Assembly (NCBI RefSeq): GCF_947241125.1
Contig: NZ_OX365700.1
Span: forward strand, 4,312,461 to 4,376,460
Length of the DNA: 64,000 nt
Reading direction: 5' to 3'
From: Nitrospira tepida
GTDB taxonomy: Bacteria; Nitrospirota; Nitrospiria; Nitrospirales; Nitrospiraceae
Under the pieces are notes generated by a model, which saw nothing but the letters and a program-made list of their open reading frames with translations, did not search any database and was not told the DNA's origin. The translations under genes were made by a program, and so were the position numbers. Below are positions 25,484 through 31,231 of the stretch, piece after piece; the stretch's first letter is position 1, and each line of letters starts with the position of its first letter.

Positions 25484-26266
25484 TTACGTGGTCGTGGCGG
25501 CTTCTTCGACGCGCACCAAACCGGCTTTAAGTTTCTCCTTGAGCCGGTACGAATGACCACGGATATTGATGGTGATGGCGTGGTGCAGGACCCGATCCAG
25601 GATCGCGGTCGCCAGCACCCGGTCCCCGAAGACCTCCCCCCAGGCCCCGAAACTCTGGTTACTGGTGAGAATCATCGGCCCCTTCTCGTAGCGACGCGAG
25701 ATGAGTTGGAAAAACAAGTTGGCCCCGGTGCGGTCAATGGGCAGATAGCCGATCTCATCGATGATCAGTAACCGCGGGATCGTGTAGAGCTTCAGCTTGT
25801 CCTCCAGCCGATTCTCCGTCAGGGCTCGAGTCAGTGTGGCGATCATGGCGGCGGCCGTCGTGAACAACACCCGATAGCCTCGCTCGATCGCTTTGAGCCC
25901 CAGCCCGATGGCCAGGTGGCTTTTGCCGACCCCGGGCGGCCCCAAGATCACGAGATTCTCGCCGTGCTCGATGAAGTGGCAGGTGGCCACTTGCTGGATC
26001 TGCTTCTTATCCAGCGACGGCTGGTAGGCGAAGTCGAAGACCTCCAGACTCTTCACAAACGGAAACCGCGCGAGACTGGTGCGCATCGTAATGTTCTTCT
26101 CCGCTTTGGCGGTCACTTCTTCACTGAGGACCTGATCGAGGAAGTCCGCATACGACAGGTCCTTGGCCGCCGCCTCCTGTAAGAGGGCGTCGAGCCGCTC
26201 GCGGCTCTTCAGGAGCCGCAGCCGCGTCAGCTGTTCACGGAGCCGTTCCAGTTGCGCCGGGTTCAT
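25484..26266 (-). CDS. istB: IS21 transposition helper ATPase IstB
   Basis: A 260-residue DnaC/AAA+-like ATPase. Walker A is visible as LGPPGVGKSHLAIGLG and Walker B as LLIIDEIGYLP, followed by sensor region ILTSNQSFGAWGEVFGD. IstB promotes target selection by the IstA transposase. ATG 26266 overlaps the istA stop (ATGA); a longer upstream frame lies within istA. Confidence 0.95.
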   Translation of the reverse strand: MNPAQLERLREQLTRLRLLKSRERLDALLQEAAAKDLSYADFLDQVLSEEVTAKAEKNITMRTSLARFPFVKSLEVFDFAYQPSLDKKQIQQVATCHFIEHGENLVILGPPGVGKSHLAIGLGLKAIERGYRVLFTTAAAMIATLTRALTENRLEDKLKLYTIPRLLIIDEIGYLPIDRTGANLFFQLISRRYEKGPMILTSNQSFGAWGEVFGDRVLATAILDRVLHHAITINIRGHSYRLKEKLKAGLVRVEEAATTT

Positions 26267-27531
26267 GGCTGCACCTCGTGCGCCGCCGCGCTCCCGCACA
26301 CCGCCTCGTAGCACGCCAGATCCCGCACTTCGACCTCCGGGACCGCACCGGGGTGAGTGGCCAGTTCGCTCAGGGTTGACCGGCGCTGGCGCGCAATGCG
26401 GGCACTGGCGCCGGGGCCGTGCTCCGGCAGAATGCGGAATTGGTGGCGGCCGGGTAACACGGGATGGGTGGCCACCTCGCGGTCGCGATGGAAGATATGG
26501 ATGGTGTCGCCCCGCCGTTGCGCCTCAACCCGTTGCCCAATCAGGCGGAAGGGCACGGAATACCGATTCGTGTCGAAGCTGACCAGATAGTCTTCAGCCA
26601 CGATCCGCGAGACCCGCGCCTCCTGCTGGAAGCCGCGCTGGCCCGCCAGTGGCACGAGGTGCTCGCGTTCTCGCTCAAACCGCGCGATCGGTCGCTCATG
26701 AGTCGTGCCGTGCAGGCGCTGGTCGGCGATCGTCACGTTCCATTCGTCGAGCTGGGCCTGGAAGTCCACCACGTCGACAAACGTCCGCCCGGGCAGAAAG
26801 TTCCGCTTCACATACTTCACGCCCGATTCCACTTTGCCTTTGGTCTGCGCCCGGTAGGGCCGACACACGCGGGGCTCAAAGCCCCAATAGTCGGCAAAGG
26901 CTTTGAACGTGGGATTCCAGAGGCGTCGGCCGGTCTCATCCGCATAGCACACGGTGCGCGGACGATCATAGAGATGCTCGCGGGTGTGCCCGCCGAAATG
27001 GGCAAAGGCCCGTTCATGGGCCTCCAGAAATTGCGCCAGGCGCTCATCGGCACACGCGTGATAGAAGCCGCGGCGACTGAACCCTAAGGTGAGCACGAAC
27101 ACGTGCACCACGACGGGACCGGTGCGGAAGGGCACGGTGGCCTGGCCCCAATCAATCTGACTTTGCTGCCCCGGCGGGGTCTCAAAGCGGAGGAGGGCCC
27201 GCTCCGCTTGCAGCTGGACCTCGCGCAGCGGCGCCACACACCGCTTCACCGTCTCATAACTGCCGGTGTAGCTCCGGCTCGCCCGCAGTTCCTGGTAGAG
27301 AATCCGCGCCGAGTACCCCACCTGCGGGGCGCGGGTCCGCACAAAGTCGGCATGGGCGGTGAGCAGCGTCTCCGCCACCGCTGCCCGGCGATAGGGGTGC
27401 CACGTCGTCTGCCGCAGACTGCGCCGGACCGTCTTGCGATCCAGATCCAACCGCCGCCCAATCGCTGAAATGGACACCCGCTCCTCGTGAAACAACCGTC
27501 GAATCTCCGCCCATCGCTCCTGATCCACCAT
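26263..27531 (-). CDS. istA: IS21 transposase IstA
   Basis: A 422-residue transposase. The N-terminal HTH (WAEIRRLFHEERVSISAIGR) is followed by a DDE integrase core with the first Asp in SQIDWGQA and the Glu in KGKVESGVKYVKRNF, then a C-terminal barrel (SFDTNRYSVPFRLIG). ATG 27531 gives the usual N-terminus of the family and has GGGAGG upstream; an upstream start at 27600 would add 23 residues. Confidence 0.95.
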   Translation of the reverse strand: MVDQERWAEIRRLFHEERVSISAIGRRLDLDRKTVRRSLRQTTWHPYRRAAVAETLLTAHADFVRTRAPQVGYSARILYQELRASRSYTGSYETVKRCVAPLREVQLQAERALLRFETPPGQQSQIDWGQATVPFRTGPVVVHVFVLTLGFSRRGFYHACADERLAQFLEAHERAFAHFGGHTREHLYDRPRTVCYADETGRRLWNPTFKAFADYWGFEPRVCRPYRAQTKGKVESGVKYVKRNFLPGRTFVDVVDFQAQLDEWNVTIADQRLHGTTHERPIARFEREREHLVPLAGQRGFQQEARVSRIVAEDYLVSFDTNRYSVPFRLIGQRVEAQRRGDTIHIFHRDREVATHPVLPGRHQFRILPEHGPGASARIARQRRSTLSELATHPGAVPEVEVRDLACYEAVCGSAAAHEVQP

Positions 27532-27675
27532 GCATGCCTCCCCAGATTGGTCCCCCTGGGCACGCATGATCGCCGACGCTCCCGTCTCGTCAAGTCCCAT
27601 CTCCCTCCTCCTTCAGTTAGGAGGGTGGGGAAAATTCAATGACCACACCTGGGGATTATTGGATGACCGCTGACA

Positions 27676-28256
27676 CTACGACCTGATCGCGGACCAATGG
27701 TCGCAAGAACGCCATGCGTCCGGATTCCGCGAGCAACCATCTGTCGATCGGTTTCTCGATCTTACCGCACCCGGGGCCCACATCCTCGACCTCGGGTGCG
27801 GATCGGGAAAGCCGATCGGACGATACCTGCTCGACCGCGGGTTCCGGCTCACAGGGGTCGATGCCTCGTTGGCCATGTTGGACCTGGCCCGGACCAATTG
27901 CCCCGAGGCCGAACTGATCGTGGGTGACATGGTCTCGATTGCACTATCCGATCGGTATGACGGCATCATCGCCTGGGATTCGATCTCACATCCCGAAGGC
28001 AGAGCATCCCGCGCTGTTTGACAACCTGCACAGGTGGGTGAGGCCGGGAGGGCCGGTCTTGCTCTCGTTGGGCGGAAGCGACGGCGAGTTCACTGATCGG
28101 ATGTTCAATGTAGAGTTCTCTTACAGCGGTCATGCTCCGGACGTCGCGGCCGTCCTGTTGCGCGAGGCCGGCTTCGACATCCTCCTGTGGGAGATCGACG
28201 ACCCTTCGTCGCGAGGCCACCTCTCCGTGCTGTGCCGGAAGACAGCTCGGCCGTAG
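27676..28256 (+). pseudogene. SAM-dependent methyltransferase, split by IS21 element and frameshifted
   Basis: This is the body of the gene begun at 25406. After the duplicated CTACG the frame reads DLIADQWSQER, with SAM motif I as ILDLGCGSGKPIG and the acidic end of strand 2 as GVDASLAM. Near 27990 the text ATC-T-CAC-ATC breaks the frame: one frame ends at 28021 while the rest (HIPKAEHPALFDNLHRWVRP to the stop at 28256) is in another. A loss of two bases fits a lost IFHIP. The gene is thus doubly inactivated. A hairpin at 28267-28293 follows it. Confidence 0.85.
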
Positions 28257-28293: not shown

Positions 28294-28431
28294 GACGGAT
28301 CAGGTCGCGCAGGCCTCGTCCCATTCAGCGGAGACAGCAGTCATGACAGAGCGGTCAGACGAAATGGAAATGTGCAAACCACGCCGCAATGCGGCGCCGA
28401 CACGCGAAGTCCAGCCAGCCGATCCTAACCA
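28294..28431. other. Non-coding spacer
   Basis: No gene recognised. It contains a small perfect hairpin CGCCGC-AAT-GCGGCG at 28382-28396 just before the inverted-repeat element at 28432. Together with that element it fills the roughly 370 bp between the methyltransferase remnant and the next gene. Confidence 0.4.
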
Positions 28432-28633
28432 ACATTATTCATGAACGTTCTGCTGCAATCGCGGATTCGCCGCTGCGACAAGCCTCCATGCGGCTTCTGG
28501 GCATGGGGGCAGGCAGGCTCGCCGCTTGGTCGGTCAACATACTGTTTCAAGTATGCCTTCCTCCCTCACGGCTCCGCGTGCCTGTCTCGCTTGGCGACTT
28601 CGCGATTTCGCGACGAACCGTCATGAATAATGT
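28432..28633. mobile_element. MITE-like element with 19-bp terminal inverted repeats
   Basis: A 202-bp segment bounded by ACATTATTCATGAACGTTC at the left and the complement of ACATTATTCATGACGGTTC at the right (17 of 19 identical). Partial pairing continues inward (ATCGCGGATTCGCC against ATCGCGAAGTCGCC). It holds no gene, and no flanking target duplication is evident. The right end contributes the ATG of the gene at 28630. It may be a non-autonomous transposable element or a long REP-type hairpin. Confidence 0.65.
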
Positions 28634-29052
28634 GGGTCGTGGCACGCCGACTCGCGCTGGTGTTTCTGGCCATCGGAGCGGTCGTCGGCACGTTGCTGAT
28701 CCTGACGGTTGAACAGCACCAGGGCACGATCCGCGAGCAGCTTCTTGCCGAACCGACGAGGGCGCCAGACCGGATCAGATCGGCTTTCCTGATCTCGGCA
28801 GTCCTGCTATCGGCGCCGCTCGTGATCTTCGCCGCTTATTTCTGGAACCTCGGCGCCAAGGTCCGTCGCGCCCAACGGTTCCCCCCTCCCAATGTTCGCC
28901 TCATCCGCGACACGCCCGTCGTTTACGGAGAGGAAGCGGCCTTTCGCGCCCGGGGGCTGCAAGCCCTCGCGATGGGCTTGCTGGTATTCACTCTGCTCCT
29001 CCTGCTGCTGTTTTGGTATGTCCTCAGCACACTGAGTGAACGAGCGACCTGA
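28630..29052 (+). CDS. Two-helix membrane protein of unknown function
   Basis: A 140-residue protein with hydrophobic segments near residues 8-26 (LALVFLAIGAVVGTLLIL), 52-72 and 112-132 (ALAMGLLVFTLLLLLLFWY), and a central polar part with FPPPNVRLIRDTPVVYGEEA. No family recognised. Its ATG is the last part of the inverted-repeat element at 28432-28633, so the original N-terminus may have been altered. A diverged second copy of the gene lies at 30868-31231, and the two bracket a group of toxin-antitoxin genes. Confidence 0.6.
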   Translation: MWVVARRLALVFLAIGAVVGTLLILTVEQHQGTIREQLLAEPTRAPDRIRSAFLISAVLLSAPLVIFAAYFWNLGAKVRRAQRFPPPNVRLIRDTPVVYGEEAAFRARGLQALAMGLLVFTLLLLLLFWYVLSTLSERAT

Positions 29053-29265
29053 TCTCATACCGGGCAAATAAGCTGGGCAACAATGGGTATTGGCAATGCC
29101 AGTGTTTGATAGAGAATCTGCAAGCCTGATGTGCCATGGGCTCGTCCTTGGATAAGAACACTGCACGGAGAAGGGGCTCTTGTCGCATAGCCTCTCTCGT
29201 ACACTTACCTATCATTAGGCAGAGACGGCTGGATTTCTGTATACTCTCAGCAGTGAGGTGACACG

Positions 29266-29487
29266 ATGATCCGAACGGTCGAAGCCGTGATCGATGAGCA
29301 CGGTCATGTGCGACTGCTGGAGCAGGTCCATCTTCCTGCAGCCCGGCGAGCGCTGGTCATGATCCTGGAGGAACGTCCAGCAACAGGAGTCGCCGAGAGC
29401 GCACTTCTCAGTGAAGCAGCACTCGCAGAGGACTGGAACCTACCGGAGGAGGACGAGGCATGGTCGCACCTGCAGCAGGTGCCATAG
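29266..29487 (+). CDS. Antitoxin-like protein upstream of a MazF-type toxin remnant
   Basis: A 73-residue protein starting with an AbrB/DUF2281-like strand pattern (TVEAVIDEHGHVRLLEQVHL) and ending in an acidic stretch (EDWNLPEEDEAW) typical of antitoxin tails that plug a toxin. GAGGTGA precedes ATG 29266. The toxin frame starts 28 bases before its stop. Because the toxin gene is internally deleted, this antitoxin may now be orphaned. Confidence 0.7.
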   Translation: MIRTVEAVIDEHGHVRLLEQVHLPAARRALVMILEERPATGVAESALLSEAALAEDWNLPEEDEAWSHLQQVP

Positions 29488-29642
29488 TCCTGGTCCGCTT
29501 TCCCTTCTCCGACTTGTCGCAGACCAAACTCTCCACCGCCAACCTGGGCCTCATCATCTCGGAGGTTGGCATCCTTAAGTTGCAATCGTTGAAGCGGGTC
29601 GTTGACGCAGTAGTGGGTCTCCTCCGCGCAAACAGCTCGTAA
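29460..29642 (+). pseudogene. MazF/PemK-type toxin with internal in-frame deletion
   Basis: The 60-residue frame begins with the family start (GAIVLVRFPFSDLSQTKL) and then jumps directly to the usual C-terminal part (STANLGLIISEVGILKLQSL, then VVDAVVGLLR). About 60-70 central residues, including most of the RNA-binding and catalytic core, appear to be missing although the frame stays open. The protein is unlikely to cut RNA. The start overlaps the antitoxin gene, as is normal for this module. Confidence 0.75.
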
Positions 29643-29710
29643 TGAAACGAGTTCAGGCCTACCTGACAAGGCAACAGAGGCAGTTCCTCGCCCTATCAGC
29701 TCATTGAATC

Positions 29711-29929
29711 ATGAAGCTCAGCTATCATCCGCATACTGATTCACTCTATATCGATCTTTCTGAAAGACCGACCGTGGAAAGTCCCGGGGTCTCCGAGGGT
29801 GTCGTGCTCGGTTACGATGCCAGTGGACGGTTGGTGGGTATTGATATCGACAATGCCGCCAATAAGGTCGAACTACAAAAACTGATCCTCAGCAAGATTC
29901 CCGGTAAGATCGAAATCAGCGCTTCCTGA
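29711..29929 (+). CDS. DUF2283 family small protein
   Basis: A 72-residue protein with the DUF2283 pattern: KLSYHPHTDSLYIDLSERP at the start, GVVLGYDASGRLVGIDIDNA in the middle and a short tail. Family members are often found near toxin-antitoxin or defence genes, but their biochemical role is not established. No partner gene overlaps it here. Confidence 0.8.
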   Translation: MKLSYHPHTDSLYIDLSERPTVESPGVSEGVVLGYDASGRLVGIDIDNAANKVELQKLILSKIPGKIEISAS

Positions 29930-30120
29930 CAGATACCTTCAGCCGACCCCAGAATGCAGCAGCCGAACTCGGACAGTAGCCCTCACATTTGAATCATGAT
30001 GACAACAGGCAGAAGGCTAAGCCCTTATCGTCATGCAGAATGCAGGCTAACACACTCCTGCCATCCTACCGCCCAGGACAATTTCTTGACATACCATATA
30101 AGACATGGCTACCATGCGAC

Positions 30121-30402
30121 GTGTGGCAGATCGAAGAGCACCGTCGGGTGGAAAAACAACTCGATGGTACACCTCTTGATATCTTGAAGCGTTACGAGAA
30201 GTGGAAGGATATTGCAGCCATCTCCGGTCCGACTGGGTTGAGACTGATCAAAGGATTTCATGACGAAGCCTTGCATGGGGAATTACATGGATATCGATCA
30301 TCTCGCTTGGGAGCGAAGTATCGGGTGATTTATCGAGTGATTCCCGGGCAGTCCTTATTTCAGGTGGTTCACATCACGCCCCATGAATATCGGAGAGGCT
30401 AA
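30121..30402 (+). CDS. RelE/ParE-family toxin
   Basis: A 93-residue protein from GTG 30121: VWQIEEHRRVEKQLDGTPLD, then WKDIAAISGPTGLRLIKGFH, RSSRLGAKYRVIYRVIPGQ and the terminal VVHITPHEYRRG, matching RelE/StbE-type ribosome-dependent mRNA interferases. The open frame continues upstream to 29989 but that part is not family-like. An XRE antitoxin gene follows after 17 bases, giving toxin-first order as in HigBA. Confidence 0.8.
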   Translation: MWQIEEHRRVEKQLDGTPLDILKRYEKWKDIAAISGPTGLRLIKGFHDEALHGELHGYRSSRLGAKYRVIYRVIPGQSLFQVVHITPHEYRRG

Positions 30403-30419
30403 GAATCGGAGAGTCTAAG

Positions 30420-30680
30420 ATGAAACCCTTTCGTCCAGCCAAAAAGCGCATCACCGTATCCTCCGGGGAGTCGGTTCGTATCATTCGCGAATTACAAGGA
30501 TATAGCCAGAATGAGTTGGCCAGGCTAACAGGCATTCCTCAGGCAACTCTCTCCGCAATTGAAAATGATCGTATCCGACTTGGCGTTGAGCGCGCCAGGA
30601 CCCTCGCGCGAGCCCTGAAGTGTCACCCGGCGGTCTTGGTCTTTCCGGGATGGGAAGTTGACCGGGATTCTGCAGCTTGA
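30420..30680 (+). CDS. XRE-family antitoxin (HigA-like)
   Basis: An 86-residue single-domain HTH protein: SVRIIRELQGYSQNELARLTG, IPQATLSAIENDRIRLG and ERARTLARALKCHPAVLVF form the five-helix Cro/C1 fold. It lies 17 bases after the RelE-type toxin gene and likely neutralises it and represses their promoter. Both members look intact, so this may be the only complete module in the 28-31 kb island. Confidence 0.87.
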   Translation: MKPFRPAKKRITVSSGESVRIIRELQGYSQNELARLTGIPQATLSAIENDRIRLGVERARTLARALKCHPAVLVFPGWEVDRDSAA

Positions 30681-30867
30681 TTCTGACATTGGAATAGGCC
30701 AGTTCCCGCTCGGCCATCCGTTCGGCTCGTTGGCGAGACGAAGTAGCTCCCTATTCATGCTGGCGACCAACCAGACAGATAATTCCAGCATGGTTTACAA
30801 ACGGTGCGTAGCTCCATATCCGATACGACGCGTGATCAAGAATGAATTGAAGGCCCCCGTTGAAGTC

Positions 30868-31231
30868 ATTCTGCTGATCCTGGCCGTTGGACAACATCTA
30901 GGGGGCAATTCGCGAGCAGATTCCGTCCGAAGCGACGGACGCAGGCGACCGGATCAGATCGGCCTACTTTTTCTCGTCGGCCCTGTTATCGAAGCTCATC
31001 TTGATCTTCGCCGCGTATTTCTGGAACCTCGGCGCCAAGGTCCGTTGCGCCCAACGGTTCCCCCCTCCCAATGTTCGCCTCATCCGCGACATGCCCGTGG
31101 TTTACGGAGCGGAAGCGGCCTTTCGCGCCCGGGTGCTGCAAGCCCTCGCATTAGGACTGCTCGTCCTCACCGGGCTCCTGCTTGCGGCATTCTGGTACCT
31201 CGCCGCAACGTTGGGCGGGCGCGCGGTCTGA
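30868..31231 (+). pseudogene. Decayed second copy of the two-helix membrane protein gene
   Basis: The 3' part from about 31001 is nearly identical to 28820-29052 at DNA and protein level (FAAYFWNLGAKVRCAQRFPP, NVRLIRDMPVVYGAEAAFRA). Upstream, recognisable DNA such as CTGCTGATCCTG and GCGAGCAG continues to about 30868, but small insertions and deletions break the frame and no start remains. The two copies are direct repeats roughly 2.2 kb apart. The 190 bp before it (30681-30867) holds nothing I can name. Confidence 0.75.

Follow-up and report, generated by a model that had tools for sequence, protein, structure and literature searches.

Gene conversion between paralogues leaves diverged gene copies that share a sharply bounded, nearly identical tract. 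The same mosaic pattern is found in a stretch of 64,000 nucleotides from Nitrospira tepida (contig NZ_OX365700.1, positions 4,312,461 to 4,376,460; hereafter the window, with positions counted from its first letter), in which two direct copies of a small membrane-protein gene enclose a set of toxin-antitoxin genes and in which one of the two partners is a pseudogene. MazEF modules are described from Nitrospira (MazF-nd1, PMC7291052); going by the available part of that paper, the MazEF remnant of the window is of the same toxin-antitoxin type and from the same genus or family, differs in that 53 middle codons of its MazF are gone, and is compared here by type and not with the MazF-nd1 sequence. 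The RelE/XRE pair of the window shares the toxin-then-antitoxin order and the family matches (TIGR02385 and HTH_3) of RelE/StbE toxins with XRE antitoxins, but its toxin lies below the curated TIGR02385 cut-off. At the start of the first membrane-protein gene copy lies a palindromic repeat, and the ERIC, Correia/NEMIS and RUP elements are, as far as the available parts of the sources go, repeats of the same kind by their features (PMC2229807; PMC10969869): small, non-coding, base-paired and present in many copies, with terminal inverted repeats and a TA target duplication (PMC2229807). Unlike them the window repeat is GC-rich and not A+T-rich, the comparison with the available descriptions being one of features, not of sequence.

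We propose that the locus is probably an eroding accessory region, shaped by an old duplication, gene conversion, decay of the second gene copy, decay of toxin-antitoxin modules and the separate insertion of the repeat.

Two mosaic copies of a membrane-protein gene

The two copies and the tract that they share are as follows.

28630-29052, plus strand: copy 1 of the small membrane-protein gene, an intact open reading frame of 140 codons (140 amino acids)
30872-31231, plus strand: copy 2, a pseudogene of the same gene with a frameshift and a TAG stop, its 3' part open (31001-31231)
28823-28970: nearly identical tract of copy 1, 148 bp, read as a gene-conversion tract
31002-31149: partner of that tract in copy 2

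Hydrophobic stretches noticed on reading its translation make the product of copy 1 a putative membrane protein; it has no Pfam family above the cut-off and no NCBIfam or PADLOC match. Copy 2 carries one extra base near 30898, where the spacing between the copies passes from 2178 to 2179, and a TAG stop at 30899-30901. The likeness of the copies reaches upstream as far as 28694 and 30872, respectively, and over 334 bp their DNA identity is 78%. Only two places in the 4.73-Mb, single-contig genome of N. tepida match the membrane gene, the second copy with E = 4.9e-66, so the direct repeats reported in the preliminary description are real; the near identity that it gave to all of 28820-29052 is wrong, since 42 of the 233 sites differ from their partners in ungapped register. 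Near identity holds for the 148-bp tract only, with 6 of 148 sites unlike, against 67 of 186 in the remainder, a count somewhat inflated because the ungapped comparison runs through a pair of small indels near 29001-29010. This contrast was equalled by none of 300 site shuffles. Third codon positions are unlike at 2 of 49 sites within the core and at 27 of 63 beyond it, and the longest perfect run common to both copies measures 45 bp. The pseudogene state of copy 2 and the repeat element at 28428-28637 were both left unmentioned in the preliminary description.

A single recent duplication of a 2.2-kb unit is ruled out by the far too high divergence outside the core. We read the mosaic as an old duplication followed by gene conversion and by decay of copy 2, because the fall at third positions would be hard to obtain by protein selection, the more so with one copy frameshifted. 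Selection on a protein motif or on an overlapping nucleic-acid signal could in principle have kept the core alike without any conversion, and the core does overlap most of the invariant columns of the family: it contains six of the eight columns invariant among seven homologues, and 21 of 24 in a second alignment, in which the row of copy 2 begins only near residue 60. Protein selection may thus contribute to the likeness. As its whole cause we consider it quite improbable, because third positions diverge so little and copy 2 is a pseudogene; moreover, four of the six core differences alter amino acids. At three of these four changes copy 1, not copy 2, agrees with the closest homologue (in genome G049), the shared residues being R (in VRRA), T (in RDT) and E (in GE), and copy 2 is therefore the changed copy.

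The copies might also be xenologues, that is, related genes acquired separately with no duplication in place. The gene is indeed patchy: in a comparison set of 118 genomes including that of N. tepida, which alone represents its genus, it has one match apiece in 11 of the 117 others (12 of 118 with its own), and a scan of genome contigs gave four loci, among them L018, with which the G049 contig is identical over its first 6,387 bases and which therefore repeats that contig. These homologues are only 23-39% identical to copy 1, while the two copies agree at 78% of 334 DNA sites, and we regard separate acquisition as very improbable. A plasmid origin of the membrane gene is unsupported, with one weak plasmid match (Acaryochloris) in a search that did not take in phage records and viral contigs.

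Decayed and complete toxin-antitoxin modules between the copies

Five genes lie between the copies.

29266-29487, plus strand: antitoxin in the MazE position and named by that position, 73 amino acids, intact
29460-29642, plus strand: deleted MazF/PemK toxin, 60 amino acids against 111 in an intact relative
29711-29929, plus strand: orphan DUF2283 protein, 72 amino acids (PF10049, E = 2.7e-13)
30121-30402, plus strand: RelE/StbE-like toxin, 93 amino acids from a GTG start, intact (TIGR02385 and ParE_toxin, below cut-off)
30420-30680, plus strand: XRE/Cro-type antitoxin, 86 amino acids, intact (HTH_3, E = 3.8e-15)

This is the content that had been proposed from the letters: an antitoxin, a deleted MazF, DUF2283 and a RelE/XRE pair. 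The first antitoxin has no Pfam or NCBIfam match and shows 85-90% amino-acid identity to genes in four other genomes (G039, G026, G030 and G019); in G030 its relative adjoins an intact PemK/MazF gene (L041:1187-1522), whose 111-residue product matches PF02452. Compared with that gene, the window MazF carries an internal in-frame deletion of 159 nucleotides (53 codons) of the core, with AAACT-type short direct repeats at the deletion ends, and its own end is two codons longer, so that the net difference is 153 nucleotides. The 60-residue product has no Pfam match, PF02452 included, and with 53 codons gone from the middle it should be inactive.

DUF2283 of the window scores 50.3 bits with PF10049 (cut-off 23). 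In genome G039 the corresponding gene overlaps the end of an 83-amino-acid gene that has no Pfam family above the cut-off and no NCBIfam family, and a relative of this partner adjoins DUF2283 on the upstream side at 14 of the 19 other loci that were scored. The count is partly circular, since the two models derive from members of these very loci, and it excludes 11 of the 30 supplied loci as not recognised by the DUF2283 model. Four of the 14 partner matches are weak or partial (L157, L158, L166 and L169), and that of L156 is broken into two pieces. A model search of the window did not find the partner. At L039 2160-2626 and related loci DUF2283 is often preceded by an unnamed protein of roughly 80 amino acids, whose end it overlaps at several of them. 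The two are a candidate for an uncharacterised toxin-antitoxin pair, in which DUF2283 would be the antitoxin; the literature searched holds no mention of DUF2283.

The RelE/XRE genes form the only pair in the cluster that still looks complete, judging from the reading frames. The RelE-like protein reaches 24.1 bits (E = 3.7e-5) with TIGR02385, under the curated cut-off of 27.9 bits, and E = 0.014 with ParE_toxin, also under the cut-off; it shares 90% amino-acid identity with a gene of genome G012 that is itself above the TIGR02385 cut-off (29 bits), and the DNA homology to G012 covers the whole pair. There the relative of the pair (L022 / L053) has DUF4160, DUF2442 and PIN-domain genes as neighbours, and an incomplete copy of the palindromic repeat (120 bp, 79%) lies 1.6 kb away. 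In a PADLOC scan of eight proteins, XRE had 12 matches of a generic helix-turn-helix type, the best at E = 1.5e-8, and the deleted MazF had a single match (E = 0.053); neither was taken for a defence system.

Borders of the region and its surroundings

DNA homology to other genomes follows the modules. Positions 29234-29530, with a second piece ending at 29629-29652, recur in G039, G030 and G060, positions 29710-29896 in G039 and positions 30056-30715 in G012, and in each case the shared DNA stops near the module borders. The membrane gene has no match in the whole genomes of G039, G030, G060 and G012, and a tblastn search with the membrane protein of stretches of 6.7-15 kb around the relatives' toxin-antitoxin modules was negative as well. 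The GC content is 0.48-0.54 in most 1-kb windows between about 29 and 33 kb, compared with 0.62 for the whole window, and the low-GC tract continues beyond copy 2, so its right border does not fall at the end of that copy.

It had been suggested that the repeats could let an island be lost by recombination, or mark how it was duplicated or acquired. The first half of this suggestion is plausible, because the nearly identical core indicates that the copies seem to have exchanged sequence, and loss of the spacer by recombination is possible. For the second half, we found nothing to show that the membrane-gene copies are marks of the island's acquisition or loss: the modules occur without the membrane gene and low GC passes copy 2, and for these reasons the repeats seem not to delimit an island. 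The stronger version, in which the copies are the ends of a unit gained or lost by homologous recombination, an excisable island stabilised by addiction, would account for the direct orientation, the 45-bp perfect run within the shared tract and the toxin-antitoxin genes in between. Besides the module distribution and the low-GC tract, it has against it the age of the copies outside the core and a search of the N. tepida genome that found no second location of the island, and we hold it to be unlikely.

Upstream of the region lies an IS21 element on the minus strand (istA 26263-27600, istB 25484-26314). Beside this element (25484-27600) is a frame-broken gene at 27650-28256, by eye like a class I methyltransferase, two tested pieces of which gave no Pfam match. 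There is no tRNA in the window.

A palindromic repeat at the start of copy 1

28428-28637: palindromic repeat element of 210 nucleotides, of the miniature inverted-repeat transposable element (MITE) kind with a TA target, by its arms, fold and family copies

The N. tepida genome holds 47 matching pieces, corresponding to at least 40 elements; copy numbers are lower bounds, 40 of the 104 candidates in this genome and up to six per relative having been scored. With up to one mismatch the arm pattern occurs at 67 forward and 64 reverse sites, whereas the reversed control occurs at none in either orientation. Matches were found in 64 of the 118 genomes, this one included: 60 of the 71 of the window's family, three of family f2 and, weakly, one of family f3. 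Among 30 copies a TA stands at the expected flank on the left in 25, on the right in 24 and on both sides in 22. Genomes G049 and G034 have a filled site, and G040 and G135 a single TA between matching flanks (one genus), a comparison from which it follows that the repeat inserts with TA duplication. The survey behind this comparison matched 56 of 59 genomes and examined 25 loci, ten of which have no recognisable right flank (L175, L180-L185, L188, L189 and L193); among the other 15, two are filled (L171 and L173), 12 are free of the element over the 280 bases leading up to the flank, and L178 has a partial match to an arm.

In the window the left TA is present at 28426-28427, and the expected right duplicate at 28638-28639 reads CG. 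The ATG of copy 1 (28630) lies inside the right arm in the frame of the gene, so that the repeat now carries the likely start of copy 1; a GTG stands at 28639, at the junction of repeat and gene. The repeat may have inserted on the old start codon, and joining the left TA to the sequence right of the repeat would make an in-frame ATG. No empty site at the start of copy 1 was found among the relatives.

Folding of the window repeat as single-stranded DNA gives z = -5.4, a stability matched by none of 200 shuffles. For the family, 22 of the 30 copies (200-206 nucleotides between the arms) were aligned and the eight of other lengths excluded; in the predicted fold 96.0% of cells are paired, compared with 87.3% for shuffled alignments, two-sided changes occur in 28 of 75 pairs (20.6 shuffled) with 163 such cells against 56.8, and sliding the pairing partners leaves 29.9-40.3% paired. 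None of 500 shuffles equals the alignment in four covariation measures, but 488 of them do so in a measure of further pair types, which does not stand out. These values are to be read with the knowledge that the fold was predicted from the alignment on which it is tested, that relatedness of the copies inflates such counts and that the shuffle controls lean towards the fold. Joint changes at the inverted ends of a transposon can also arise without any role of RNA. Covariation is not confined to the ends, however, but is seen in the internal hairpins too (columns 59-88 and 119-136), and because pairing is kept by compensatory changes in both, a selected folded form is suggested.

The repeat had no match in an Rfam scan at E up to 1, and a known Rfam family was accordingly ruled out. 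A parent transposon bearing the repeat ends was sought in the N. tepida genome among IS630-type elements only and was not found: of three IS630-type matches two belong to a single gene, and near them the arms match only with two mismatches and not as inward-pointing ends. Among the matches listed, a single arm pair is spaced 0.5-5 kb: at L106 (G000:C1:2769065-2770412) its arms, about 1.35 kb apart, flank a transposase gene of the IS110 type (Pfam DEDD_Tnp_IS110), and an IS110-type insertion sequence may have inserted into a repeat copy there. Our literature search found nothing on a palindromic repeat or repeat family of Nitrospira, and one paper that it returned for Nitrospira and MITEs places its MITEs, in the part available, on dioxane-gene contigs, not in Nitrospira. 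The family may nevertheless be in print, for instance in the prokaryote-wide MITE survey cited in the available part of PMC11602168. Tentatively, and with somewhat less than even confidence, we suggest that the repeat represents an undescribed, Nitrospiraceae-wide family of mobile palindromes whose fold is selected, in a transcript or in a single-stranded transposition intermediate, and that it has re-supplied the start codon of copy 1.

Proposed history of the region

In the history that we favour, the small membrane-protein gene would have been duplicated long ago, and toxin-antitoxin modules, which are found in other settings in genomes of the family, would have come between the copies. Copy 2 would have lost its reading frame, and gene conversion would have made the 148-bp stretch nearly identical again with the spacer retained, the tract having since gained its six differences. 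The two presumed antitoxins would have lost their toxins, MazF through a slippage-type deletion of 159 nucleotides and the partner of DUF2283 entirely, and the TA-duplicating palindromic repeat would have inserted separately at or beside the start of copy 1. Most likely nothing acts as an island here; cassettes would accumulate and toxins would be lost first. Losing the segment may be costly because of the complete RelE/XRE pair, and this could help to explain the persistence of a pseudogene and of a 2-kb spacer. The mosaic of the copies, the frameshift, the MazF deletion, the absence of the DUF2283 partner, the occurrence of the modules elsewhere, and the repeat family with its TA target are observed; the order of events, gene conversion as the source of the mosaic, the antitoxin role of DUF2283 and the cost of losing RelE/XRE are inferred.

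Several points weigh against this history, in addition to the invariant columns in the core and the inflated count outside it. Five of the 19 scored DUF2283 loci (L141-L144 and L163) are also without the partner, L142 being in the N. tepida genome itself, and the GC dip is interrupted at copy 2, where a 1-kb window reaches 0.576. The events are undated, and the state before the duplication is unseen, the comparison set containing no second genome of the genus. On balance, the region probably represents ordinary genome erosion, with a probable conversion tract that is well preserved.

Implications

Two modules of the region would clearly exemplify toxin-antitoxin decay, the toxins seemingly having been lost before the antitoxins, and between the old paralogues of the membrane-protein gene an exchange of sequence seems to have taken place over a 2-kb spacer. 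DUF2283 and its upstream partner offer a testable candidate for a toxin-antitoxin pair. The Nitrospiraceae include nitrite oxidisers and complete ammonia-oxidising (comammox) bacteria, and for this family the palindromic repeat is the lead of wider use: abundant in its genomes, inserting at TA and covarying in its fold, it could serve both for strain typing and for the question of what selects the fold.

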